A stretch of 44,746 bases of DNA, from NCBI GenBank assembly GCA_017472965.1, contig JAFUNR010000052.1, forward strand, positions 1 through 44,746, written 5' to 3'. The first letter of the stretch is position 1; the number at the start of each line of letters is the position of its first letter. Of the stretch, positions 2,381 through 42,415 are shown in pieces. The position numbers and the translations under genes were made by a program. Source of the stretch: Oscillospiraceae bacterium. Lineage in GTDB: Bacteria > Bacillota > Clostridia > Oscillospirales > Ruminococcaceae. The notes under the pieces are model-generated. The model worked only from the letters and a program-made list of their open reading frames with translations. It made no database searches and was not told where the DNA came from.

Positions 2381-2431
2381 CGGCAAAACGCCCGAAAGGA
2401 TACAACAAGGACTTGCGAAGGAGACATAGCT

Positions 2432-3553
2432 ATGCATGAAGCTACTGCACTGCGGGAACGGCTGGGAGGTTTTCTGAAAGGGATCTGTCATCCCGGGAAG
2501 GAGTATGCACTGCTGAAGGGCGCCGGCTTTGGCTGGGTGCGCCGGGATGTGCCGTATCCCTTTGATGAAAACGGCAGGCCTTCACCGGCCCACCGGCATT
2601 TTCTTGCCGAAACGGAAGCATATGCCAAAAACAGTCTGCGTTGCACTCTGATCACCCCTTACGCTGCCGATTTTATCGCTCACGGCATCGACCCCCGTAC
2701 ACCGGAAGGTCAAAAGCAAACCGAGAAACTTTGTGCCTTTCTTGCGCGGGCGTACCGTCCGTATGCTCCCTGTTGGCAGGCCACCAACGAACAGTTCAAC
2801 CCGCACTTCCGTGCTCCCCTCACCGCCGAAGAAAGCCGGAATTTCATCATCGCCTGCCTGCGTGGTCTGCGGACGGGGGATCCCGATGCCGTCATCGGGC
2901 ACAATTCGGTGCAGGATGCTGGTTTGTGGGATGATTTTGTGCGGGAAATCGATGCCGCCTGCGACTGCGATTACACCGGCCTCGACCTATACAACGGCAG
3001 TTGGACCGACGGTGGCCCCGAAACCTATATTGAAAAAATCCGCCAGGTGTATGAGCTGTGTCAAAAGCCGGTCGTTTTAATGGAATTCGGTTTTGCCTCC
3101 GCCGGAAAAAACGCCAGCCCGGATTTTCACGAGGCATACGATTACATTCACGAAAAAGGCTTCCGTGATCTGGAGGACATCTTCGCTCGCAGCGAAGAAT
3201 ACATCGAAACCCTACCCTGTGAACCTTTGAAGGCGATGGCGCACAGCTGCGCGCCGCAGGATGTGCCGCAGCAGCTATACAACAGCTTCCCCCATGTGAT
3301 GAAAATGTGGTTTGCACCGCAGGTGTTCCCGCATACGGAGGACGGACAGGCGCAGTTTTACGAAGAACTGCTTCCGCTGCTGCTGGATTGCCCGCAGCTT
3401 GCGGGCGCCATTCTCTACTGCTGGCAGGACGCCCCCTACTGCGGCTTTTGCGGCGCTGCCGATTGTCCCTGTGAGACTGCGTGGGGACTGCTGCGAACCG
3501 ACGGCACGCCGAAAAAGGCCTACGACACGGTACGGCGATGCTTCGCTGTGTAA
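2432..3553 (+). CDS. Putative clan GH-A glycoside hydrolase-like protein with a cysteine cluster
   Basis: A 373-residue protein with no signal peptide, so probably cytoplasmic. It has the layout of a clan GH-A (beta/alpha)8 glycosidase. An Asn-Glu pair in QATNEQFNP (N119, E120) is the likely acid/base, and a second glutamate at a strand end in VVLMEFGFA (E218) is the likely nucleophile. Other strand ends (GHNS, GLDLYNGSW) fit the barrel. Near the C-terminus there is an unusual cysteine group at C337, C340, C345 and C347 (CGFCGAADCPC), which could bind a metal or form disulfides. Start ATG follows GAAGGAG at good spacing. It sits alone between tatD and the rimP promoter. The substrate is unknown; the GH-A reading is an inference from motifs and I cannot name the numbered family. 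Confidence 0.62.
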   Translation: MHEATALRERLGGFLKGICHPGKEYALLKGAGFGWVRRDVPYPFDENGRPSPAHRHFLAETEAYAKNSLRCTLITPYAADFIAHGIDPRTPEGQKQTEKLCAFLARAYRPYAPCWQATNEQFNPHFRAPLTAEESRNFIIACLRGLRTGDPDAVIGHNSVQDAGLWDDFVREIDAACDCDYTGLDLYNGSWTDGGPETYIEKIRQVYELCQKPVVLMEFGFASAGKNASPDFHEAYDYIHEKGFRDLEDIFARSEEYIETLPCEPLKAMAHSCAPQDVPQQLYNSFPHVMKMWFAPQVFPHTEDGQAQFYEELLPLLLDCPQLAGAILYCWQDAPYCGFCGAADCPCETAWGLLRTDGTPKKAYDTVRRCFAV

Positions 3554-3640
3554 GAGCGGAGGACAGCTTTTTCCGGTGGCTGACGGCAAATGTACCATTT
3601 TCCGCCGCAAACAGCCGCGGGTAATCGTCATTTTGATCGC

Positions 3641-3669
3641 TTGCATTTTTTGCGCTTCTGTGGTATACT
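3641..3669 (+). promoter_or_regulatory. Sigma-A-type promoter of the rimP-nusA-infB operon
   Basis: TTGCAT at 3641-3646, a 17-nt spacer, and TATACT at 3664-3669, preceded by TGG as an extended -10. It lies 113 nt upstream of rimP and is the only good promoter before the operon. Confidence 0.75.
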
Positions 3670-3697
3670 ATGTTACTGTAAGAATATGCTTGTGAAG

Positions 3698-3731
3698 GAG
3701 AGTGAGCCGCAAGGCTCGCTCTCTTGTCTTT
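3698..3731 (+). promoter_or_regulatory. GNRA-capped leader hairpin before rimP, possible attenuator
   Basis: GAGAGTGAGCC (3698-3708) pairs with GGCTCGCTCTC (3713-3723) around a GCAA tetraloop, with one G-T wobble, and is followed by the U-rich TTGTCTTTG. It starts about 20 nt after the predicted transcription start. The weak U-tract suits a factor-dependent or conditional terminator rather than a strong intrinsic one. Confidence 0.55.
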
Positions 3732-3781
3732 GTAAGGCGCTTTTCACACAGCAGTGAAAGAAACAGGAGAGAAGAAACAAC

Positions 3782-4261
3782 ATGGCAAAATACCAAAAGC
3801 GCAATACCGTGGCAGAGGTGGAAGAGCTTGTCACCCCCACGCTGGAGCAGCTGGGCTTTGCGGTGTGGGATGTCCGCTTTGAGAAGGAAGGCCCCAACTG
3901 GTTCCTGCGCATCCTCATCGACCGCGCCGACGGCAGCACCATGGATACCGATGCCTGCGAGCTGGCTTCCCGCGCGGTGGATCCCATCATCGATGAAGCC
4001 GATCCCATCGAGCAGAGCTATTATCTGGAGGTCGGTTCCCCCGGACTGGGCCGCCGCCTGACCCGTGCCCGCCACTACGAGGCCTGCGAGGGTGAGCGTG
4101 TCAGCGCCCGTTTGATCCATACCGAAAGCGGTGAGCGGGAGCTTTCCGGCATCCTGTGCCGCAGCGGCGAGGGCTGGTGCATCCGCAATGAAGCCGGCGA
4201 GACCCCCATCGTGGAGAGTGAGCTGGCTTTCCTGAAGCTGGATGACGATCTGGATCTGTAA
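3782..4261 (+). CDS. rimP: Ribosome maturation factor RimP
   Basis: A 159-residue factor needed for late 30S subunit maturation. The N-terminal domain carries the family pattern (VEELVTPTLEQLGFAVWDV, then FLRILIDRADG), followed by the conserved LEVGSPGLGRRLT turn. The C-terminal part is a short SH3-like beta domain. The start ATG follows AGGAGAGAAGAAACAAC. It is the first gene of the nusA-infB operon, its standard place in Firmicutes and many other bacteria. A 102-nt gap to nusA contains a GC-rich hairpin. Length and motifs are normal. Confidence 0.96.
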   Translation: MAKYQKRNTVAEVEELVTPTLEQLGFAVWDVRFEKEGPNWFLRILIDRADGSTMDTDACELASRAVDPIIDEADPIEQSYYLEVGSPGLGRRLTRARHYEACEGERVSARLIHTESGERELSGILCRSGEGWCIRNEAGETPIVESELAFLKLDDDLDL

Positions 4262-6154: not shown

Positions 6155-8704
6155 ATGGTAGTTAAATATAAACTGAGCGATCTGGCCCGCGATCTGGGCG
6201 TGTCCAATAAGCAGATCATCGATCTGCTGGCCGCCGACGGCTCCGAGCCCAAGAAATCCAGCGTCAATCTGACCGATACCGAGCTGAATCTGGTGTTTGA
6301 GCATTTCACCAGCAGCCGTCAGGTCGCCAACTTCAACGCCTATTTTGCCAGCGCCGAGGAGGCAAAGGCCGAGGCTGCGAAGAAGGCCGCCGAAGAAAAG
6401 GCTGCCGCCGAGGCTGCGAAGAAGGCTGCCGAGGAAAAGGCCGCCGCCGAAGCCGCCCGCAAGGCCGCCGAGGAAAAGGCCGCCGCCGAAGCCGCCCGCA
6501 AGGCTGCTGAGGAAAAGGCCGCTGCCGAGGCCGCCCGTAAGGCCGCTGAGGAAAAGGCTGCTGCCGAAGCCGCCCGCAAGGCCGAGGAGGCCCGCGCCGC
6601 CGCCCGCCGCAACGAGCCGCTCAAGCGCGCCGACGGCACCGTGGTGCAGATGCCCACCAAGGCAAAGGAAGAAAAGAAGTCCGAGCAGCCCGCTGCCCGC
6701 CGCGAGGTGGTGACCCGTACTGTGGATACCCGCACCGTGGATGTCAATCTGGATAAGTTCAACGAGCGTTACGACGATATCGCCCAGTCCCGCGGACAGG
6801 GCGGCGGCAAGCGCAAGAACGATCAGGGCGGCAAGCAGAAGCTGAATAAGAACAACAACAAGTTCGGCAACAAGCCCCAGCAGGGCAATAAGCACCGCGA
6901 GACCGAGGCCGAGCGCCTGCAGCGCATCCAGCTGGAGAAGGCCCGCAAGGCTCAGCTGAAGGTGCAGATCCCCGATGAGATCACCGTCGGTGAGCTGGCC
7001 CAGCGCCTGAAGGTCACCGCCAGCCAGGTCATCAAGAAGCTGATGCCGCTGGGTATCATGGCCGGCATCACCGAGACCATCGATTTCGATACCGCCTCTC
7101 TGGTGGCCGAAGAACTGGGCGCCAAGGTGGAGAAGGAAGTCCATGTCACCATCGAGGAGCGTCTGTTCAACGAGGAGATCGAGGACAGCGCCGAGAACAT
7201 GGAGACCCGTCCCCCCGTTGTGGTCGTCATGGGCCACGTTGACCACGGCAAGACCTCCGTGCTGGATGCCATCCGCAAGACCAATGTCACCAAGGGCGAG
7301 GCAGGCGGCATCACCCAGCACATCGGTGCTTATCAGGTGGAAAAAGACGGCAACGTCATCACCTTCCTGGATACCCCGGGTCACGAGGCCTTCACCGCCA
7401 TGCGTGCCCGCGGTGCAAATATGACCGATATCGCCGTTCTGGTGGTTGCCGCCGATGACGGCATCATGCCCCAGACCGTGGAATCCATCAACCATGCCAA
7501 GGCTGCCGGCGTGCAGCTGATCGTGGCCATCAATAAGATGGATAAGCCCACTGCCAACCCCGACCGTGTCAAGGAGCAGCTCACCAAGTATGAGCTGGTG
7601 CCCGAGGAATGGGGCGGCGATGTCATCTGCGTGCCCGTTTCCGCGCTGACCGGCGCCGGCATCGAGGATCTGCTGGAGTATATCAACCTGACCGCCGAGG
7701 TACAGGAGCTGAAGGCCAACCCCAACCGCCGCGCCAAGGGCGTTGTGGTGGAGGCCCGTCTGGATAAGGGCCGCGGCCCTGTCGCCACTCTGCTGGTGCA
7801 GAACGGTACCCTGAATCAGGGCGATATCATCATCGCCGGCACCGCCGTGGGCCGTGTCCGTGTGATGACCAACGACAAGGGCCGCAGCATCAAGACTGCC
7901 GGTCCCTCCACCCCCGTTGAGATCACCGGTCTGACCGAGGTTCCCATCGGCGGTGACCAGTTCGATGTTGTTGCAGATGAAAAGCTGGCCCGTGAGCTGG
8001 CCGAGCAGCGTGCTGCCGCCGCCAAGGAGGAGCAGTTCCGCCGTTTCCAGAAGGTCACGCTGGATAACCTGTTCAGCCAGATCGCACAGGGCGATGTCAA
8101 GGAGCTGCCCATCGTGGTCAAGGCCGACGTGCAGGGCTCTGCCGAGGCCGTCAAGCAGTCTCTGGAGAAGATCACCAACGAAGAGGTGCGCGTGCGTGTC
8201 ATCCATGCCGGCGTCGGCGCCATCAGCAAGTCCGATGTCACACTGGCCAGCGCCAGCGGCGCCATCATCATTGGCTTCAACGTCCGTCCCGATGCCATCG
8301 CCAAGGCCGAGGCTGCCGAGGCCGAGGTCGAGATGCGTATGTACCGCGTTATCTATGATGCCATCAACGATGTCACCGATGCCATGAAGGGTATGCTTGC
8401 CCCCAAGGTGCGCGAGGTGGAGCTGGGCCATGCCGAGGTGCGCAGCGTCTTCAAGATCAGCAGCGCCGGCACCATCGCGGGCTGCTATGTGCGTGAGGGC
8501 AAGATCACCCGTGCCGCCAAGATCCGTCTGGTGCGTGACGGCATCGTCATCGCAGAGGATGAGATCTCCAGTCTGCGCCGCTTCAAGGACGATGTCAAGG
8601 AAGTGGCCACCGGCTACGAGTGCGGTATCGGTCTGGAAAAGTTTGCCGATATCAAGGAAGGCGATATCTTCGAGGCCTTCATCATGGAAGAATACCGCGA
8701 TTGA
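6155..8704 (+). CDS. infB: Translation initiation factor IF-2
   Basis: An 849-residue GTPase that brings fMet-tRNA to the 30S subunit and promotes subunit joining. An IF2N helical module ([17 protein letters not shown]) opens the protein. It is followed by a long Ala/Glu/Lys/Arg helical repeat tract and a basic, Asn/Gln/Gly-rich linker, then a second IF2N ([17 protein letters not shown]). The G domain starts near residue 355, with GHVDHGKTS (G1), DTPGHEAF (G3) and NKMDKP (G4). The beta-barrel and C-terminal fMet-tRNA-binding domains follow to the end. The start ATG is preceded by AAGGAGG. The repeat tract is low complexity and likely varies in length between strains. Confidence 0.97.
6371..6601 (+). 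repeat. In-frame 39-nt tandem repeat inside infB
   Basis: Five full copies and one partial copy of a 13-codon unit ([13 protein letters not shown], later [13 protein letters not shown]) run from 6371 to about 6601. The copies differ mostly at synonymous positions. The product would be a single charged alpha-helix. Confidence 0.85.
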
Positions 8705-27169: not shown

Positions 27170-27757
27170 ATGAAGCTGAAACTGAGTAAGCGCACGCGGC
27201 TGCTCCTTGCGCTGCTGCTGATCCTTGCGGTGGCAGCATACAGTCTCTGGGGACAGGATGCCGCACCCGCGCCGGAGGTACAGGAGCTGCCAGCCGCAGC
27301 GGAAAGCGTGCAGCCGCAGCCGCAGACGGAGCCGGCGGATGAGACTGCCGGCGCACCCACCGACGAAAGCAGCATCACCGGTGTGCCGCCCGATACGCAG
27401 ACTCCGGATGAGCGGGGCAGCTATACATCGAAAGAGGATGTGGCGCTGTATCTGTATCTGTACGGACGCCTGCCGGATAATTTCATGACCAAGACCGAAG
27501 CCCGTGCGCTGGGCTGGGAGGGCGGCTCTCTGGAGCCCTATGCCCCCGGCATGTGCATCGGCGGCGACCGCTTCGGCAATTACGAGGGCCTGCTGCCGGA
27601 AAAGGACGGCCGCAGCTACACAGAATGCGATATTGATACGCTGGGGGAGGATTCCCGCGGGCCGAAGCGCATCGTTTTTTCCAATGACGGCCTGATCTTT
27701 TATACAGATGACCATTATGAAAGCTTTGAGCTTTTGTATGGGGAGGAGGACGCATGA
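27170..27757 (+). CDS. Secreted or membrane-anchored barnase-family ribonuclease
   Basis: A 195-residue protein with a basic N-terminus and one hydrophobic segment (about residues 11-27), serving as signal peptide or anchor, then a Pro/Glu/Thr-rich linker to about residue 83, then a barnase-type guanyl-preferring RNase domain. Barnase residues can be matched: K27 to K108 (TKTEARALGW), E73 to E152 (YTECDI), R87 to R167 (KRIVF), and H102 to H182 (DDHYESF). The substrate-binding R59 is replaced by Y138 in GGDRFGNYEG. The start ATG at 27170 is preceded by AAAGGGG. Its stop overlaps the barstar gene by 4 nt (ATGA), so inhibitor and enzyme are made together. Likely a secreted toxin or nutrient-scavenging RNase. 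Confidence 0.93.
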   Translation: MKLKLSKRTRLLLALLLILAVAAYSLWGQDAAPAPEVQELPAAAESVQPQPQTEPADETAGAPTDESSITGVPPDTQTPDERGSYTSKEDVALYLYLYGRLPDNFMTKTEARALGWEGGSLEPYAPGMCIGGDRFGNYEGLLPEKDGRSYTECDIDTLGEDSRGPKRIVFSNDGLIFYTDDHYESFELLYGEEDA

Positions 27758-29664
27758 GACAGGCGATCCTTGACGGCCGGCTGATCCGGACACGTTCACA
27801 GGTACATACGACCCTGGCGCAGCAGCTGGAGCTGCCCGCATGGTACGGCGGCAATCTGGATGCGCTGCACGACTGTTTGACGGCGGCAAGGGAGGAGACC
27901 ACCCTTGTGCTTGCCCATCCCGAGCTGCTGGAACAAAATCTGGGAAGCTGGCTGAACGCTCTGCGGCGGATGCTGCGGGAGGCCTGCAGCGATAATCCCC
28001 GGCTGCACATAAAGGAAACGCCCCGCGCCGATGCAGGCTTTGTGATGCGCTGTGCGCTGGTGGGCAATCCGGTGCGGCATGATATTCCCTTTGATACGGC
28101 GGCACTGCGGCGGCTGAAGACTCTGGGCTTCAACACGGTGCAGCTGAATATTGCATGGGGCTGCCGCCCGGGGGATGAGCCGCTGAATCTGGAGGATATC
28201 CTTTCCCCCACCGATACGCCGGATGAGCGGCAGCGCCGCTGGTTTGACGAGATCGCCCGCCGTGCCGCGCTGGTCCATGCCGCAGGTATGCGTGCCATCT
28301 TCCATTTCGGCGCCCCGCGTCTGACCGGCAGACTGTATCAGATCCTCGGTGACGATGTCGCTCTTACACAGGATACCGAGGAAAATGCACCCCAGAAAGA
28401 AAGTGTCATTCAAAAATATGAATACCTGATCACGCTGCTTGCCCGCCGCATTCCGCAGGTGGATGATATTCTTGTCTATACCTTTGATCAGGAGGCGTGG
28501 GTCGGCAGTGAGTTCGGCAGCGGTGAGCTGGCTGCCGGTGTGCCGCTGCACAAGCGGCTGCCCCTTTTTCTGCAGCGCCTTGCCGCCCGCTGGGCGGCGG
28601 AGCGCCCCGATGGCCGGCTGTGGTGGGAGCCGTGGGAGATCTCTGCCGGCACGATCTATACAATCCTGCCCGAGCTGCCCCGTGAAAATTTCGGTCTGAT
28701 GCTGCACAGCAACATCGCCGAGGTACAGAAAGCCAATCCTGCCGACCGTTGGCTGCGCAACACCTCTCTTTTGGCCGGTGAGCTGGGTATCCCCATTTGC
28801 GGAGAGGTGTTCCTCTCCGGTGCAAACGAAGAGGTGGAGCCGCTGCAGCACGCCTTTGCGCCTGCGCTGGTATGGGAACAGATCCACCGTCTGCAGGAGC
28901 TGGAGCTGTACGGCATCAAGGAGTATTTCGGCACCCGTCCCGATATGCCTGCCGAGCTGGATCTTACCATGGCGGGTATCTGCTTTACCGATCCATCTTT
29001 GGGTGAAGGCGAGGCGCTGGCCGCACTGGCCGCCCGCTGGCCCAGGGTGAGTGCGCTGCCTGCGGCAATGCATGCCGCTCACAAGGCGCTGGCGCTGTTC
29101 CCGTGGGATCTTACCTGGCGCTGGCGGGTGATCTGCGGTCAGCACACCGCATGGCACCCCTATACGGCATGGTGGGCCCCCGGCGAGGTCGCCCCCAGCC
29201 CCAGCTGGCGCAGCACCCGCCGTGCGGTTTATATGATGACATCAGATGAGGAGTCTCATCACCCGTGGCTCATCGAGGATATCAGCCTGCGCTGCCGCGC
29301 CGCAGCACAGGCCATGCGGCAGGCTGCGGAGGAATACACCCGCTGTGCCGGTCAGTGTGCGGAGGAAGCCGATGCGCAGACCTTCGCCGCAGCGGGGCAG
29401 GATTTCACCCGTTTTGCCGCCGTGGCAATGGATCAGGCGCTGCACGCCGAGCAGACGCTGTGCGCACAGCATATCCGCCGCTTTGCCGATCAGGGCTGCG
29501 TGCCCGCGCACATCATTGAGCGAATGAACGCTGCGCTGGCCGCCGATGTGGAAAACCAGCGTATCACCTGTGCTGTGGCGCCGGATGCCGTCAGCCATGC
29601 CGACGAAGCGCTGGCAGCTTTCACCGCTGATCCGGTGGGCTGGTGCCGCAAAAACTATCTGTAA
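27754..29664 (+). CDS. Barstar inhibitor fused to a TIM-barrel glycosidase-like protein
   Basis: A 636-residue fusion. Residues 1-88 are a full-length barstar: N-terminal strand, YGGNLDALHDCL (D36 and D40 match the barnase-contacting D35 and D39; W38 is replaced by H39), E76 in LREACSD, and final strand RLHIKE. Its role is to bind and block the adjacent barnase-like RNase in the cytoplasm. From about residue 98 a second protein begins, with barrel-like strand ends (FNTVQLNIAWG, RAIFHFGAPR, DILVYTFDQEAW, LWWEPWEIS, IPICGEVFLSG) and a helical C-terminus (about 500-636). The barrel resembles clan GH-A-like glycosidases, but I cannot name the family. No stop separates the halves; an in-frame ATG at 28045 with weak upstream GCAGG could start the second part alone. 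Terminates in a bidirectional hairpin. Confidence 0.85.
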   Translation: MRQAILDGRLIRTRSQVHTTLAQQLELPAWYGGNLDALHDCLTAAREETTLVLAHPELLEQNLGSWLNALRRMLREACSDNPRLHIKETPRADAGFVMRCALVGNPVRHDIPFDTAALRRLKTLGFNTVQLNIAWGCRPGDEPLNLEDILSPTDTPDERQRRWFDEIARRAALVHAAGMRAIFHFGAPRLTGRLYQILGDDVALTQDTEENAPQKESVIQKYEYLITLLARRIPQVDDILVYTFDQEAWVGSEFGSGELAAGVPLHKRLPLFLQRLAARWAAERPDGRLWWEPWEISAGTIYTILPELPRENFGLMLHSNIAEVQKANPADRWLRNTSLLAGELGIPICGEVFLSGANEEVEPLQHAFAPALVWEQIHRLQELELYGIKEYFGTRPDMPAELDLTMAGICFTDPSLGEGEALAALAARWPRVSALPAAMHAAHKALALFPWDLTWRWRVICGQHTAWHPYTAWWAPGEVAPSPSWRSTRRAVYMMTSDEESHHPWLIEDISLRCRAAAQAMRQAAEEYTRCAGQCAEEADAQTFAAAGQDFTRFAAVAMDQALHAEQTLCAQHIRRFADQGCVPAHIIERMNAALAADVENQRITCAVAPDAVSHADEALAAFTADPVGWCRKNYL

Positions 29665-29902: not shown

Positions 29903-32503
29903 TCAGCGGCTCAGCAGCTCGCGGATGGCCTTTTCGGCGGCATCCACTTCCTCGCGGAAGGCGGATGCAGATACCCGCAGTGCGCCGTGGCCCAGAATGA
30001 TCAGCTGTTCCAGCGCATCGCTGGTGGCCACGCGTACCCGGTGGTTTTTTCCAAGCTGGTGAGTGGCCTTTTCAATGTACATATCGGCGGTTTCGGCCTC
30101 TTTTGTGTATACCACATGGATGCCGTGGTATTCCTCCACCTCGCCGGGGTTCCCTTTGACGCGGTAGGCATCAAACACCAGGATCAGCTCGCCGCCGTGC
30201 CAGCCACGGTAGTTGCACAGAATGTCCATCAGCCGTCCGCGGGCGGCATCCAGATCCTCCTGCGCCAGCGCGTGCAGATCGTCCCATGCAAACAGGATGT
30301 TATAACCGTCCACCAGTGTGTACTCGGTGCCGCCGGCGGCGGGGGCGGTGCGCTCCCGCTGCAGCGCTTCCCCTGTGGGACGGAACAGCTGTTCTGCGCC
30401 GCGGCGGCGGATGGGCCCGTAGGTTCGTTCGAAAATGGCCAGCAGCTCCTTGTCCTCCTCCAGTGTGCCGCGATAGCGAACGGCAGAGCCTTCGGTGCGG
30501 GGTGCAGCGGTGCGGGCAGCGGCGGTTTCAATGGGTGCGGCGGCGCGTTTGCCCCAGCCGGTGTCAATGTGCTGGTAGTGGCGCACCTCGTTCCATTTGA
30601 CCAGAAAGCCTGCGCCGTGGGCACAGAAGACGGAATCCGCCGGATTTTCCGTATCCGCATCGGGGGAGTAGTTTGCCGCAGCGATGACCTCGGCTGCGTT
30701 GTGGCAGGGGCGGTAGCTGTCCGGTGTGCAGGCAAGCGTACCGCGGCCGCGGGTGTAGCTGAGCACTTCGGTGGTATAATCCCGCAGACAGGCTACGGGG
30801 GCACGCCCTGTGAGCATCACGGTTTCACCCAGCGTCTGCGGCTGGCCGTATTCGGCGTGGCGGCGTTCCAGATCGGTGATGGCGCGACCGATGTTTTCGG
30901 CGGGGATCTCCAGCCGGAAGGCATACCACGGCTCCAGCAGCTGACAGCTTGTGCTGCGCAGGCCGTGGCGTACGGCACGGTAAGTGGATTGCCGGAAGTC
31001 GCCGCCCTCGGTGTGTTTGGGATGAGCACGGCCTGCCAGCAGCGTGATCTTCATATCGGTGATGGGTGCACCGGTCAATACGCCGGGATGCTGCTTTTCC
31101 TCCAGATGGGTCAGGATCAGCCGCTGCCAGTTCAATTCCAGCTCATCGGTGTGACAGGCGCTGGCAAAACGCAGACCGCTGCCCGGCTCGCCCGGCTCCA
31201 GCAGCAGGTGTACCTCGGCATAATGGCGCAGAGGTTCATAGTGGCCGATGCCCTCGACGGGTTGGGTGATGGTCTCGCGGTACAGAATGCTGCCCTCGCC
31301 AAACTGCACCCGCAGCCCCAGCTGCGCCAGCCGGTGGGTCAGCACCTGCAGCTGAACCTCGCCCATCAGCTGCACCTGAATTTCGGCATTGCGCTCGTCC
31401 CAACGCACATGCAGCTGGGGATCCTCCTGCTCCAGCCGGCGCAGAATGCCCAGCGCGGTGTGGGGATCCACCTCGTCCAGCAGTGCCATGCGGAAGGTGA
31501 GCACCGGCTCCAGTACCGGCGGCAGCGCATCCGCACCTGCGCCAAGCCCCTGTCCGGGCCGTGTGTGGGAAAGCCCCGTCACGGCGCAGACACTGCCCGC
31601 AGGTACCTCGTCCACCGCCTGATATTTTGCGCCGGAATAAAGCCGCAGCGCGGTGACCTTTTCCTCCCACGGGCCGTCGGCATCCTCGCCGGAAAGCAGG
31701 GTGCGGGCTTTCAGACTGCCGCCGGTGATCTTCATGAAGGTCAGCCGTGCGCCGGAATCATCGTTGGTCACCTTGTATACCCGTGCGGCAAATTCACTGC
31801 CGCAGACGGGCGCAGGGCACCAGCGTTCCAGCGTATCCAGCAGGGCATCCACACCCTCGCATTTCAATGCACTGCCGAACAGGCAGGGGAATACCCGCCG
31901 CTGCGCGATGGCGGCGGTGAGAGCCGTATCCAGTGCGGGGGAATCTTCCTCGCCGTCCAGCACCAGCTCCATCAGCTTTTCGTCGCAGACGGCCAGCTCC
32001 TCCAGTGCTTCTGCCGTCAGGCGGCCGTCCTGCATTTCCAGCGTGGTGCAGCCGGCGGAAAGCCGCTTTTGCAGTGACTTCAGCACGCGGGTGCGGTCGG
32101 CCCCCGCCAGATCCATCTTGTTGATGAAAAGAAAGGTGGGGATGCGGTAGCGCTCCAGCAGCCGCCACAGGGTCTCGGTGTGGCTCTGTACACCGTCGGT
32201 GCCGCTGATGACCAGTATGGCCGCATCCAGCACCTGCAGAGTGCGCTCCATCTCGGCAGAAAAGTCCACATGACCGGGGGTGTCCATCAGGGTGATCTCC
32301 GCACCGCGGCAGCGCAGCCGTGCCTGCTTGGAAAAGATGGTGATGCCGCGCTGCTTTTCCAGCGCATCGGTATCCAGAAAGGCATCGCCGTGATCCACCC
32401 GACCCAGCTTGCGGATCTCGCCGGCACGGTACAGAAGAGCCTCGGACAAGGTGGTCTTGCCCGAGTCCACGTGTGCCAGTATGCCAATGACCAGTCGTTT
32501 CAT
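29903..32503 (-). CDS. EF-G/Tet(M)-like translational GTPase fused to a NYN (YacP/Rae1-type) nuclease domain
   Basis: An 866-residue protein. Residues 1 to about 640 follow the Tet(M)/ribosome-protection layout: G1 AHVDSGKTT (10-18), G2 RGITIF, G3 DTPGH (74-78), G4 NKMD (128-131), then EF-G-like domains II-V including the domain IV region EGGDFRQSTYRAVRHG. A linker rich in Ala/Arg follows. From about 728 to 866 is a NYN/PIN-fold domain: VDGYNILFAW (D732), LVFDAYRVKG (D778), ETADMYIEK (D807), TSDALEQ (D829). That domain matches YacP, called Rae1 in Bacillus, a ribosome-dependent mRNA endonuclease. The start ATG follows AAAGGAACCGCAC. Naming it a tetracycline-resistance gene from the N-terminus alone would be unsafe; its activity is undetermined. 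Confidence 0.88.
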   Translation of the reverse strand: MKRLVIGILAHVDSGKTTLSEALLYRAGEIRKLGRVDHGDAFLDTDALEKQRGITIFSKQARLRCRGAEITLMDTPGHVDFSAEMERTLQVLDAAILVISGTDGVQSHTETLWRLLERYRIPTFLFINKMDLAGADRTRVLKSLQKRLSAGCTTLEMQDGRLTAEALEELAVCDEKLMELVLDGEEDSPALDTALTAAIAQRRVFPCLFGSALKCEGVDALLDTLERWCPAPVCGSEFAARVYKVTNDDSGARLTFMKITGGSLKARTLLSGEDADGPWEEKVTALRLYSGAKYQAVDEVPAGSVCAVTGLSHTRPGQGLGAGADALPPVLEPVLTFRMALLDEVDPHTALGILRRLEQEDPQLHVRWDERNAEIQVQLMGEVQLQVLTHRLAQLGLRVQFGEGSILYRETITQPVEGIGHYEPLRHYAEVHLLLEPGEPGSGLRFASACHTDELELNWQRLILTHLEEKQHPGVLTGAPITDMKITLLAGRAHPKHTEGGDFRQSTYRAVRHGLRSTSCQLLEPWYAFRLEIPAENIGRAITDLERRHAEYGQPQTLGETVMLTGRAPVACLRDYTTEVLSYTRGRGTLACTPDSYRPCHNAAEVIAAANYSPDADTENPADSVFCAHGAGFLVKWNEVRHYQHIDTGWGKRAAAPIETAAARTAAPRTEGSAVRYRGTLEEDKELLAIFERTYGPIRRRGAEQLFRPTGEALQRERTAPAAGGTEYTLVDGYNILFAWDDLHALAQEDLDAARGRLMDILCNYRGWHGGELILVFDAYRVKGNPGEVEEYHGIHVVYTKEAETADMYIEKATHQLGKNHRVRVATSDALEQLIILGHGALRVSASAFREEVDAAEKAIRELLSR

Positions 32504-37505: not shown

Positions 37506-37540
37506 AAAAAGGCACCGCCGTGCTCAGCGGCGGTGCCTTT
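37506..37540. terminator. Bidirectional terminator
   Basis: GGCACCGCCG (37511-37520) pairs with CGGCGGTGCC (37528-37537), flanked by AAAAA on the left and TTT on the right. It separates the convergent peptidase (+) and AraC regulator (-). The stop of the AraC gene lies inside the right arm. Confidence 0.85.
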
Positions 37541-38807
37541 CTCTATATGCAACAGGGGGAATGCCGACCACCTCCCGGAACACCTGCGTAAAATAACTGC
37601 GGGTGTTGAAGCCAAGTTGCTCCGAAATTTTCTGAATGCTCAGGTCGGTGCTGATCAGCAGCAGACGGGCACGGTCGATTTTGACCTGCTTTATGTAGTC
37701 GTTGATGAATAGACCGGTCTCCTCGCGGAATCGCTGAGACAGATAATACTCTGTGTAGCCCACCAGTGCGGCAAGATCCTTGGCAAGGATCTTTTTGTCC
37801 AGATTCATTTCGATGTAATCGCAGCAGCGCTGAATGTGATAGGAAAGCTTGGGCCGGTTTTTACTCCGGTGTACCCGCTGGACGAAATCGCTGAACATGG
37901 CGGCCTGTACGGCAGCAACTGCTTTTTCGGTGGGGGAATCCTCCATGCGCTGCAGGTAAAGTGATTCCATGGCAAGCGCTTCGTCGATGGGCAGACCGCC
38001 CTCGATGGCGGCGCGGCTGACCAGAGAGATAAATACGGCGTTTTCGGTTTTGACACGGCGCAGCGGTTCACTGCTTTTCAGCTTGGGGGCGCTGTCTGCC
38101 AGCAGCAGCCGGTTATAGGTTTCCTTGTAATTCATATCGCCGGATCGCACAATGTGCAGCAGTGCCTGTTCGGTGCGCAGGTCACGTGCCCGGTCTGCGC
38201 TGGGATCCTCATAAAACAGGGCGGTCTCGCGTATGATCTCATCCTCGGTAAGCTTTGCCTCCAGAAGCCTTTCCCGGGTGGGCGGCGGTTCGGTCTGGGA
38301 TGCGCCGGCTTCCGGCGGCAGCAGGTCGGCTGCGGTCAGCCTTTCGCTGGTCAGGCAGAAATGCATCATCAGCGCGTAGCGGATGGCCACACCGGAGGAG
38401 ATGACCGGCAGCTGGCGTATCGCTTTGAGAAAGCTGCTTTTCCATGTGATGGTCAGGCGGGGGTCATCATACCGGTTCAGTATCTTTTCCACGCTGCGGT
38501 CCGGTGTTTCGTGAAAAAAGACAGGTCCGATCACAAACGAATGCTTCAGCAGATCCTCTGCCCACTCGAAATCCGCAAACCAGCACAGGCCTGTTTCGCC
38601 GGAAAGCAGAATGGGATGAATATCCGTCGGCAGACGGTGCAGCAGATGCTCCTTGCAGCCGAAAACGGTAAAAGCCGTATCCAGCAACTCGGCATCCGGA
38701 CAGTTGGTGTTCACCAGCTGCCCCTGTGCGTCGTATTGCCACAGATACAAATTCCCTTCGCAGCGGATCAGTTCTTTCAGCAAAGCCATGTTCTGCATGG
38801 TATTCAT
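37524..38807 (-). CDS. AraC family transcriptional regulator, paralogue 1
   Basis: A 427-residue regulator. The C-terminal 100 residues are an AraC double helix-turn-helix (IQRCCDYIEMNLDKKILAKD, then YYLSQRFREETGLFINDYIK and the second HTH ending in VVGIPPVAYRERHRR). The long N-terminal region of about 320 residues is not a simple cupin; it begins LYLWQYDAQGQLVNTNCPDA and looks like a PAS-like sensor followed by helices. It is clearly paralogous to the next regulator. The start MNTMQNM is chosen by AGGAGG 7 nt upstream and by agreement with the paralogue. Likely a regulator of the adjacent sugar locus. Confidence 0.92.
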   Translation of the reverse strand: MNTMQNMALLKELIRCEGNLYLWQYDAQGQLVNTNCPDAELLDTAFTVFGCKEHLLHRLPTDIHPILLSGETGLCWFADFEWAEDLLKHSFVIGPVFFHETPDRSVEKILNRYDDPRLTITWKSSFLKAIRQLPVISSGVAIRYALMMHFCLTSERLTAADLLPPEAGASQTEPPPTRERLLEAKLTEDEIIRETALFYEDPSADRARDLRTEQALLHIVRSGDMNYKETYNRLLLADSAPKLKSSEPLRRVKTENAVFISLVSRAAIEGGLPIDEALAMESLYLQRMEDSPTEKAVAAVQAAMFSDFVQRVHRSKNRPKLSYHIQRCCDYIEMNLDKKILAKDLAALVGYTEYYLSQRFREETGLFINDYIKQVKIDRARLLLISTDLSIQKISEQLGFNTRSYFTQVFREVVGIPPVAYRERHRR

Positions 38808-38889
38808 GATCATCCCTCCTTTGAACATCACCGGGTTTGCGAAACTTATTTTATGATAACCGAAACCCTTGCCGCAAATGAATAAAGAT

Positions 38890-38912
38890 TTCGGGTCGGC
38901 TGTCAAAAATTA
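38890..38912. promoter_or_regulatory. Conserved element upstream of AraC paralogue 1
   Basis: 19 of 23 positions match the element at 40584-40606. Core: TTCGGGTC, then GGCTGTCAAAAATTA. On the minus strand it contains TTGACA, which can act as a -35 box. Confidence 0.6.
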
Positions 38913-39222: not shown

Positions 39223-40521
39223 TCAGACTTTGCAGGAATCGCGGTATTCCACCGGGGTTTTGCCCACGATCTCGCGGAATACCTGCGAAAAATAGCTGCG
39301 GGTGTTGAAGCCCAGCTCTTCCGAAATGCGCTGAATGCTCAGATCGGTGCTGATCAGCAGCAGCTTGGCGCGCTTGATCTTTGCAAGCTTGATGAAGTCG
39401 TTGATGAAAAGGCCGGTCTCCTCGCGGAAGCACTGGGAAAGGTAGTATTCCGTGTAACCCACCAGCTCAGCCAGATCCTTGGCGCGCAGCTTTTTATCCA
39501 GATTCATCTCGATGTAACCGCAGCAGCGCTGGATGTGCGGCGATAGCTTCGGCCGGTTTTTGGCGCGGTGTACCCGCTGCAGAAAATCATCGTACATCAC
39601 CGCACGCACAGCGCTCACATCGGATGGGGTGGTGGCCTCCTCGTTTTTCTGCAGATAGCCGCCTGCCACGGAAAGCGCCTCGTCAACGGGAAGGCCGCCG
39701 TCGATGGCGGCATGGCTGACCAGCCCGATGAAGATGGTGTTGCGTATTTTGGATGCCCGCAGCGGTTCGTCGCAATCCAGAGGCTCTGCTTCAATATCCG
39801 TCAGAAGGCGGTTGAAAGTCTCCTTATAGTTCAGATCACCGGCGCGTACCAGCCGCAGCAGCGCCTGTTCCGTGCGCAACTGGCGTGCCAGGGACCAATC
39901 ATCCTCCGTCAATCCGGCGGTCACCTTGCCGCTGCTGCCCTCCGTCACCAGCTTTCTGTCTGCCAGCAGATCCCTTGTCAGCGGCAGGTCTACCTTTTGC
40001 TTCAGCGGATCCATCAAAGGAACGGCGCGGGGCTGCAGATCGGCAAAGGTCAGTTTTTCTCTGGTCAGACAAAAATGCAGCATCAGCGCATAGCGCCGTG
40101 CGATGTGACCGGGAATTACCGGCAACCCGGCGGTGCATTTCAGAAAATGATCCTTCCATTCGACGGTCAGCCGCGGATCCGTATAGACATTCAGTGCCTT
40201 TTCAATGACTTTTTCCGGCGTTTCACTGAAGAGCAACGGCCCAAAGACAAAGGCACTTTTGATTTTATCTTCCTCCCACTCGAAATCCGCACACCAGACA
40301 AGACCGGTATCGCTGGAAAAAAAGATGGGATGGATATCTGTGATCTTCTGTTCCAGCATCAACGCCTTGCAGCCGAATGCGGAAAAAGCGGTATCCAGAA
40401 GCTCTGCCTCCGGACAGTTGGAAAACAGGATCTCACCTTGACTGTCGTAATGCCACAGGTAAAGGTTGGCGTCAAGACTGATGAGATCCTTCAGCAGTGA
40501 CATGTTTTGGATGATATTCAT
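39223..40521 (-). CDS. AraC family transcriptional regulator, paralogue 2
   Basis: A 432-residue paralogue of the previous regulator. It has the same N-terminal opening (LYLWHYDSQGEILFSNCPEA), the same central region (RALRTEQALLRLVRAGDLNYKETFNRLL-like in segments), and a C-terminal AraC double HTH (IQRCCGYIEMNLDKKLRAKD, FREETGLFINDFIK, second HTH to VGKTPVEYRDSCKV). The start MNIIQNM follows GGAGGGGATCCTAT. Divergent from the GH2-like gene with a 115-nt shared control region that contains the conserved 40584 element. The two regulators likely arose by tandem duplication. Confidence 0.92.
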   Translation of the reverse strand: MNIIQNMSLLKDLISLDANLYLWHYDSQGEILFSNCPEAELLDTAFSAFGCKALMLEQKITDIHPIFFSSDTGLVWCADFEWEEDKIKSAFVFGPLLFSETPEKVIEKALNVYTDPRLTVEWKDHFLKCTAGLPVIPGHIARRYALMLHFCLTREKLTFADLQPRAVPLMDPLKQKVDLPLTRDLLADRKLVTEGSSGKVTAGLTEDDWSLARQLRTEQALLRLVRAGDLNYKETFNRLLTDIEAEPLDCDEPLRASKIRNTIFIGLVSHAAIDGGLPVDEALSVAGGYLQKNEEATTPSDVSAVRAVMYDDFLQRVHRAKNRPKLSPHIQRCCGYIEMNLDKKLRAKDLAELVGYTEYYLSQCFREETGLFINDFIKLAKIKRAKLLLISTDLSIQRISEELGFNTRSYFSQVFREIVGKTPVEYRDSCKV

Positions 40522-40583
40522 ATAGGATCCCCTCCGTTTCAAACAAAGAATATCTCAAATCAAGTATAGATGCAAGCAAAAAA

Positions 40584-40636: not shown

Positions 40637-42415
40637 ATGCGCAGGATGTTCGAACTGAATGACGGCTGGCGGCGGGTGCCTGCCGCAAAAAGCTTTGCCG
40701 ATGCCGCCGCACGGGTCGAAGCGGACGGCGAGGATGTTTCGCTGCCGCGCATCGGCAGCGGTGCACAGGGCTGCGGCTGGTATCTGCTGCAGCTTTCCGG
40801 GCCGCTGTCAAAGCTGCAGGCCGGAAGCGGCGAATGCATCTGGCTGGAATTTGACGGTGTCGGCCCGGTGGCGGAGGTTTTTGCGGATGGCATCAGTCTG
40901 CTGCGGCACGAGGGCGCAGGCTCCCGCTTTCGGGCGGAGCTGACCGGGTTTATAACAGACGGTGCCTGTCCGCTGCTGGCGGTGGCGGTCAGCGATGATG
41001 CTTTTTATCCCAATAGCCGTGAGTTTCCCGCGTTCAGCGGCTTTGGCGGCGGCGTGCGGCTGCTGGCGCTGCCGCAGGCTCATTTTTCCATGGAGTATAT
41101 GGGCAGTACCGGTATAAAAGTGCAAACGGCATTGCACGAGGACTCTGCCGAGGTCACAGTGGAGCTCTGGGCGCAGGGCCCTGCAAAAAGCGCAGAGGTT
41201 TTTCTGGAGGAAAAAAGCGAACGGGTGCGGTTCCGCGCCGGCTATGCACAGGCGGTTTTCACGCTGCCTTCGCCGCATCTGTGGCAGGGGGTGTGCGACC
41301 CCTATCTGTATACCGTCACTGCCCGGATGGACAGCGGGGACGAGGTCAGCACCCGCTTTGGCATCCGCAGCATGACGCTGGATGCCGGCCGCGGCTTCCT
41401 GCTCAACGGCAAGCCGTATCCGCTGCACGGGCTGTGCTGCCGGCCGGTCGCAGGCAGCGGCACGGCGCTGCATCTGACAGGGCGGCAGGAGCTCCTTGCT
41501 CTGCGCAGCCTTGGCGCCAATGCGCTGCGGCTGCAGTGGCTGCAGTTTTCACAGCAGGTGTACGATATCTGCGATGAGCTGGGACTGGTGGTTTGGACAG
41601 AGATCCCCTTTGCCGAAACACATATTCCCACAGGTTATTATACCATATTCAGTCAGCTGTTGGAACAGATCGTACAGAATGCCTCGCATCCGTGTGTCGC
41701 CTGCTGGGGGATCTCTCACGGGATCGGTACCGCGGCGCTTACCTCGCCGCTGGTGCTGCACGAGCACTGGCTGCTGAATTCGCTGTGCCACACCCGTGAT
41801 GCGGGACGCAGTACGGTCATCAGCCACAGCGCCTGCATACAGGATGAGGATCCGCTGCTGGAGATCGCCGACACCAACTGCTTTGATATCCGCTGTACCG
41901 CGCCCGCCGCACTGCAGCGCGAGCTGGAAAAGCTGGAGCTTTACCACCGGCGCTATCCCGGCAGCAGCGTGGGGGTATCCTGCTACGGCGGTACGCAGCC
42001 GCGGCATCTTCTGCACCTGCACGAAATGATGCTTGCTGCGCAGAAAAAACGGCCGTGGCTGTGGGGGGCTTTTGGCGCGGATGTGCGGCCCTGTGCGGAG
42101 GAGCAGCCGTCTGCCGATGTATTGCAGCGGGATCTGCACGCGCTGTACCGTGCGCACTGGACGGCAGAGCCCATGGTGCATATCTGCGGCGGGGATGTAC
42201 AGCAGTGCCAAACCCCGCAAACGGAGCTGACGGTGTACACCAATCGGCCGGAGGCGGCGCTCTATATGGATGGCCGATTGATCGCGCTGCAGGGCGGCAC
42301 GCCGGTGCTGCATTTTACATTGCAGCTGACAGAAGCGCATACGGTGGAGGTTCGCACCAGCTGCTGCAATGCGGTGTGCAGGCTGGTGTATACAGCGGCC
42401 AGAAGCGCAGGCTGA
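40637..42415 (+). CDS. GH2-family-like protein lacking the catalytic glutamates
   Basis: A 592-residue protein with glycoside hydrolase family 2 architecture: sugar-binding sandwich domain (about 1-150), immunoglobulin-like domain (about 155-245, with HLWQGVCDPYLYTVTARM), and TIM barrel (from about 250, GRGFLLNGKPYPLHGL, GANALRLQWLQFSQQVYDIC, LGLVVWTEIPF). The acid/base Asn-Glu after HPCVACWGIS is replaced by H361-G362, and the nucleophile glutamate of the usual SEYG is C449 (VSCYGG). The usual His/Asp-rich GVNRHED stretch reads GLCCRPVAG. It is therefore probably not an active glycosidase and may be a sensor or binding protein. No signal peptide. Start preceded by AAAAAGGTGATGTT, divergent from AraC paralogue 2. 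Confidence 0.72.
   Translation: MRRMFELNDGWRRVPAAKSFADAAARVEADGEDVSLPRIGSGAQGCGWYLLQLSGPLSKLQAGSGECIWLEFDGVGPVAEVFADGISLLRHEGAGSRFRAELTGFITDGACPLLAVAVSDDAFYPNSREFPAFSGFGGGVRLLALPQAHFSMEYMGSTGIKVQTALHEDSAEVTVELWAQGPAKSAEVFLEEKSERVRFRAGYAQAVFTLPSPHLWQGVCDPYLYTVTARMDSGDEVSTRFGIRSMTLDAGRGFLLNGKPYPLHGLCCRPVAGSGTALHLTGRQELLALRSLGANALRLQWLQFSQQVYDICDELGLVVWTEIPFAETHIPTGYYTIFSQLLEQIVQNASHPCVACWGISHGIGTAALTSPLVLHEHWLLNSLCHTRDAGRSTVISHSACIQDEDPLLEIADTNCFDIRCTAPAALQRELEKLELYHRRYPGSSVGVSCYGGTQPRHLLHLHEMMLAAQKKRPWLWGAFGADVRPCAEEQPSADVLQRDLHALYRAHWTAEPMVHICGGDVQQCQTPQTELTVYTNRPEAALYMDGRLIALQGGTPVLHFTLQLTEAHTVEVRTSCCNAVCRLVYTAARSAG

Follow-up and report, generated by a model that had tools for sequence, protein, structure and literature searches.

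A barstar domain read through into a TIM barrel, and repeated fusion of barstars to unrelated enzymes

In the stretch of DNA analysed here (44,746 nucleotides; the window), a barnase-type ribonuclease gene is followed by a single reading frame in which a complete barstar runs without a stop into a large TIM-barrel domain (Table 1). The frame is open, Pfam identifies its barstar half, and a structure model shows its barrel half, which bears out the preliminary description of a barstar in frame with a glycosidase-like barrel. Judged from its sequence, the protein is a variant architecture containing a barstar domain; at 636 residues it does not match the stand-alone size of about 90 residues, a feature that is usual for barstars but does not define their fold. 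The arrangement is repeated in other genomes: 10 of 175 barstar matches in the order carry a long C-terminal partner, and the partners are of seven kinds. We lean, with some reserve, towards reading the window frame as encoding one cytoplasmic protein of two independent domains, the outcome of a recurrent weld of barstar to the next gene after loss of the barstar stop codon.

Table 1. Features at the barnase and barstar-barrel locus of the window
Feature	Position	Strand	Basis
Barnase-type ribonuclease	27170..27757	+	Pfam PF00545, E 4.8e-19; Shine-Dalgarno energies; segments
Barstar-barrel fusion ORF, 636 aa	27754..29664	+	No stop over 636 codons
Barstar domain over residues 1-90, with YGGNLDALHDCL as contact segment	27754..28023	+	Pfam and alignment to PDB barstar
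AAAGGA, perhaps left over from a ribosome site of the barrel gene	28011..28016	+	Congener has AAAGGAG ahead of its ATG
Join, residues 91-97, without linker repeat	28024..28044	+	Translation and structure model
ATG at the position of the congener's start codon, offset by one base from the barrel's frame	28031..28033	+	Its frame ends at TGA 28043-28045
TIM-barrel domain of an uncharacterised family, ending in C-terminal helices; ATG 28045, in frame, is a possible internal start	28045..29661	+	Model, 59 related loci, alignment A2, fold comparison

The barstar domain (PF01337) matches residues 1-79 of the frame with an E value of 1.6e-16, scoring 60.4 bits against a family cut-off of 23.4. Its barnase-contact segment, YGGNLDALHDCL, aligns with YGENLDALWDCL of the PDB barstar, and the contact acids, which we take to be Asp35 and Asp39 in barstar numbering, are conserved in this alignment (NLDALHD in the window, NLDALWD in the PDB barstar). 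The ribonuclease frame is open from GTG 27155, with a better ribosome site at ATG 27170, and the barnase stop overlaps the barstar ATG by 4 nt. The N-terminus of the barnase is hydrophobic, its E, R, and H segments are presumably of the catalytic type, and the protein looks intact. A second barstar of this genome, unfused (G000:C1:101126-101392; L090), directly follows a barnase-domain frame of 97 aa and groups elsewhere in the barstar tree, where support is weak. Elsewhere in the window, the fusion is adjoined at 29903-32503 (-) by a gene for an EF-G-like GTPase with a C-terminal YacP-like NYN domain (PF00009, EFG domains, PF05991), and two adjacent AraC-type regulators with similar N-termini (37524-38906 and 39223-40542, -) lie beside a GH2-like gene (40637-42415).

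Residues 98-636 are modelled as a confident barrel followed by C-terminal helices, with pLDDT mostly above 90 from residue 98 and a first strand at residues 98-103. The barstar part is poorly modelled because the alignment behind the model holds no other barstar, and pLDDT is below 50 over residues 82-92. Pfam gave no family for residues 90-636 at E values up to 1, the sole NCBIfam match to the ORF was far under its cut-off, and a search of solved structures by sequence with the barrel profile returned a single match, at E 0.53. Both halves are coding in the fusion frame, the barstar by its profile match and the barrel by homology to the protein of a congener and by its even codon-position GC. 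Neither observation bears on the join itself; the GC pattern would be the same for a fusion and for two overlapping genes, because the halves keep their own frames in both cases.

The preliminary description had proposed searching families and genomes for the barrel and its junction: relatives of the barrel were found (59 loci in several phyla), and the same junction only in the window. Searches with the whole fusion returned no copy other than the window's in the 61 genomes searched first and in two of the genus. The barrel by itself occurs in 2 of 394 order genomes and 1 of 398 phylum genomes, with the window's own counted in both; neither phages (searched with the whole fusion) nor plasmids (searched with the barrel) gave a match at E 1e-5. 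Barstar and barnase profiles matched at none of the 59 barrel loci in the DNA examined. Weak profile matches among 55 members of the family are to GH35 (2 of 55) and AP_endonuc_2 (9 of 55). One genome (G181, contig C27) has two adjoining stand-alone copies (L012 and L013) near ORFs named by eye as ABC-transporter-permease-like.

The sole congener compared (G001) shows what the barrel gene looks like by itself. There it is a separate 539-aa gene, 67-68% identical to the window barrel in its product (dN 0.25; dS 2.1, which is saturated), adjoining pnp and a GNAT-like gene and preceded by AAAGGAG. The 18 kb read around this locus contains neither barstar nor barnase, and the G001 genome (a draft, 88% complete) gave no match to the barstar profile. 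The residues AGF, the first that align among the barrel proteins, come right after the congener's start codon; in the window they are read through from the barstar, across a join that is free of linker-like repeats, as the preliminary description had observed. The out-of-register ATG 28031 has a ribosome-site energy of -5.5 kcal/mol, with AAAGGA upstream. It seems from this comparison that the old start of the barrel was lost through a small shift that also brought barstar and barrel into one frame. Two once-separate genes with a lost boundary are the likely origin, as had been suspected. The further thought that close relatives might retain two separate genes holds for the barrel in the congener but not for the barstar, which is missing from the barrel's vicinity there, and none of the relatives examined has barstar and barrel adjacent and split by a stop or frameshift.

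The shift rests on one genome and may be evolutionary or assembly-made. It is conceivable, and in our judgement unlikely, that the apparent fusion is artefactual or stems from a recent shift by a single base in this one assembly, so that two overlapping genes only look fused. An assembly error would likewise leave an old ATG at the congener's start position, behind AAAGGA and one base off the barrel's register, and the join is known from one genome only, a single draft assembly (85% complete, 63 contigs). However, the longest homopolymer in 27981-28080 is CCCC, which lowers the odds of a simple sequencing slip; the nine fusions in other genomes provide precedent; and a barstar-QueA fusion found in two genera is hard to explain in this way.

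In a second alternative, the fused frame is real, but translation from an internal start, GTG 28042 or ATG 28045, yields most of the barrel as a protein of its own. Initiation at M98 would leave the domain whole, since strand 1 begins with that residue, and better internal sites are kept in several of the other fusions. A four-codon mini-frame runs from ATG 28031 to TGA 28045 and overlaps ATG 28045 as TGATG (window 28031-28047), a re-initiation-like layout that could permit such a start. Yet the ribosome site of ATG 28045 has an energy of -2.5 kcal/mol, against -11.9 for the barstar ATG, and is no better than internal ATGs in general (n = 75, mean -3.0 kcal/mol, 20% reaching -5). The ATG proposed earlier as a separate start for the barrel thus exists, but it has a weak ribosome site, and we give separate production as the main route a low probability. 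The weak internal start favours a single product, and the ORF is probably expressed as one protein.

Support for a weld comes from a survey of barstars in the order. Profile searches gave 81 matches in 247 family genomes and 108 in 394 order genomes; 14 were shared by hand count, leaving 175 distinct, of which one is a chance match (G388) and one is under the cut-off (G900). All frames of at least 182 aa were read, except G900:C17 (207 aa), as were 80 regions with shorter frames and a few others. Frame lengths were counted over 101 single-barstar frames read from 104 loci. Five of the loci are duplicates, and the tree has 96 distinct sequences. Outside this count are L087, L091, L092, L094, and L097-L099, as well as L140-L142, which have no match to the seven-seed profile. 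The frame extends 0-47 residues beyond the barstar in 91 of the 101 frames and at least 153 residues in the other 10, with no frame between. Besides the barrel of the window, the partners are a radical SAM protein (L081), QueA (L082-L085), an M32 carboxypeptidase (L086), a DIP1984 family protein (L093), a PelX-like pectate lyase (L096), and one of unknown kind that is cut by the contig end (L095). Pfam matches span the whole profile for M32 (2-489 of 489), QueA (1-322 or 2-322 of 322), and DUF6847 (1-141 of 141). A barnase with E, R, and H segments, recognised by eye, is present at all 10 fusion loci; its frame ends at most 60 nt upstream in nine, and 2.2 kb upstream in L084. The N[LA]DAL.D motif is kept in every fused barstar and in 64 of the 91 unfused frames. 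Six fusions (L096, L095, L082, L093, L086, and L081) contain internal ATGs with site energies of -11.6 to -5.8 kcal/mol, so both the fusion and the free enzyme may be made from them; only the sites of L096 and L095 are clearly above baseline.

Several other long frames were considered as C-terminal fusions and rejected. The barstar is at or near the C-terminal end in L087, L088, L092, and L094; it ends the frame in L098-L101, where the opening portion resembles other sequence read in an overlapping frame; and L097 is a chance match within an unrelated 660-aa frame. A sample of the phylum yielded 14 barstar matches in 9 of 239 genomes (the two of the window included), and among these the window's fusion is the only one of its kind. 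Three more long frames from this sample were set aside, one an ordinary barstar with its barnase and two with the barstar in the C-terminal part. Two barstars of genus g75 (L102, 1740-2201, and L181) have cysteine- and acid-rich C-terminal tails of 47 and 32 residues, possibly metal-binding, and in L092 (G065; 2425-3705 and 7448-8266, -) proteins carrying two or three barstar-like repeats are encoded close to barnase-like frames.

The ParE toxin, which is about 90 residues long and commonly encoded second in its operon, served as control in the 247 family genomes. Among the 150 ParE matches listed, none is a fusion and the longest open frame is 162 aa. In the same genomes, 7 of 81 barstars are fused, against 0 of the 150 ParE matches listed (Fisher p 0.0005); with each partner kind counted once, the comparison is 4 of 78 against 0 of the 150 listed (p 0.013). 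As only one control family was compared, the grounds for a general excess of barstar fusions over ordinary gene fusion are slender. On the barstar tree, which has few columns, the fused label requires 7 changes, compared to a mean of 9.7 after shuffling (2 of 500 shuffles as low), and the starred branches force at least three. The AU test does not reject a single clade uniting the fused barstars (p 0.134), although their partners differ.

The QueA fusions are the strongest case. Each of the four genomes (drafts, 97-100% complete) has no QueA other than the one fused to barstar. The codon at the QueA start position is CTG in L083 and CTT in L085; the nearest in-frame start-like codons upstream of the lost start are GTG at 10 codons (L083) and TTG at about 14 (L085), and the dozen codons that follow showed no further start-like codon in either. 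An extended free QueA could, strictly speaking, still be made from this GTG or TTG. The four fusions are 70-76% identical in QueA and 31-54% in the barstar, all four retain NADAL.D, and their barstars form one supported clade (98/93; bootstrap not fully settled) that spans two genera. Upstream of the barstar-QueA operon in L085 lies a gene for a second, degenerate barnase-like protein (3037-4050, -), in which E, R, and H segments are absent by eye and which has no Pfam match at E 1e-4. The DIP1984 loci form a series: barstar and DIP1984 are in different frames in G340 (L145), in one frame but split by a stop and a 7-codon spacer in G397 (L149, from a sister of the fusion), and fused in G334. 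On the sequences compared, this series shows how a weld can arise.

We return to the weld as our preferred account of the window protein. A barnase-barstar pair would sit directly upstream of another gene; once the barstar stop is lost, the immunity domain would become the N-terminus of the next gene's product. The barstar half would block the upstream-encoded barnase in the cytoplasm, the barrel half would be an independent enzyme, probably sugar-cleaving, and the two would act separately, without cross-talk. We suggest that the weld is tolerated because barstar presumably needs no free C-terminus and its partners can presumably bear an N-terminal extension. As barstar works in the cytoplasm, cytoplasmic partners are expected; we take QueA, M32, radical SAM, and DIP1984 to be such and are unsure of the PelX-like lyase. 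The preliminary description had instead raised RNase binding coupled to a carbohydrate-active or sugar-sensing domain. Apart from the join itself, nothing supports direct coupling of this kind to the barrel, and we think it very improbable that barnase binding alters the enzyme half or that the enzyme half controls immunity. The QueA fusions, one barstar clade in two genera, do indicate that such a fusion can persist. The partners, however, are of seven unrelated kinds, the join is modelled with low confidence, and the few neighbours scanned suggest no common pathway; the six unrelated partners besides the barrel point to an opportunistic weld rather than to a special coupling.

Immunity proteins are usually regarded as free-standing genes that are readily gained and lost. 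A benefit of fusion could be a natural antitoxin-enzyme entanglement, arising repeatedly in this order: once the immunity gene is tied to a gene that is useful or present in one copy, such as the sole QueA, losing immunity would mean losing the enzyme too. This would stabilise the exported RNase system, with the barstar-barrel protein as one member of the set. We regard this as a tentative idea, for which the sole-copy QueA is the best support. Overall, the fusion of barstar to unrelated enzymes, with six partner kinds besides the barrel, looks like a recurrent weld. The titles and abstracts of the literature searched, which covered few subscription journals, report no barstar fused to such enzymes, and long barstar fusions may carry the annotation of the enzyme half only. 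If our account is true, the weld, which takes in the sole copy of a tRNA-modifying enzyme, shows how an immunity gene gets locked into a genome.

Among known systems, GH67 alpha-glucuronidase and GH84 O-GlcNAcase have the same barrel fold as the window protein by fold comparison. Identity to them is about 10% and the window protein matches no glycosidase profile at E values up to 1; we rejected filing it under either family, as the likeness is one of fold alone. With its stand-alone relatives the barrel shares the 27 columns that are invariant across the 55 rows of alignment A2. These relatives lack a barstar, and the Bacteroidota copies, unlike the window protein, start with signal-peptide-like stretches (by eye). 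A barstar domain in Pseudomonas CDI is reportedly the subject of one study (PMC4725963). Passages of PMC3482391 treat barnase-barstar as simple gene pairs and Imm-Barstar as immunity genes. Clustered barstars do occur at other loci (for example, G884, G829, and L092), whereas the window has one pair rather than tandem immunity genes behind a large modular toxin. The window locus resembles the simple barnase-barstar pair (PF00545/PF01337), with the RNase gene directly before the barstar, a 4-nt overlap, and a retained contact segment; it differs in that the barstar has no stop of its own and bears a 540-residue enzyme-like domain.
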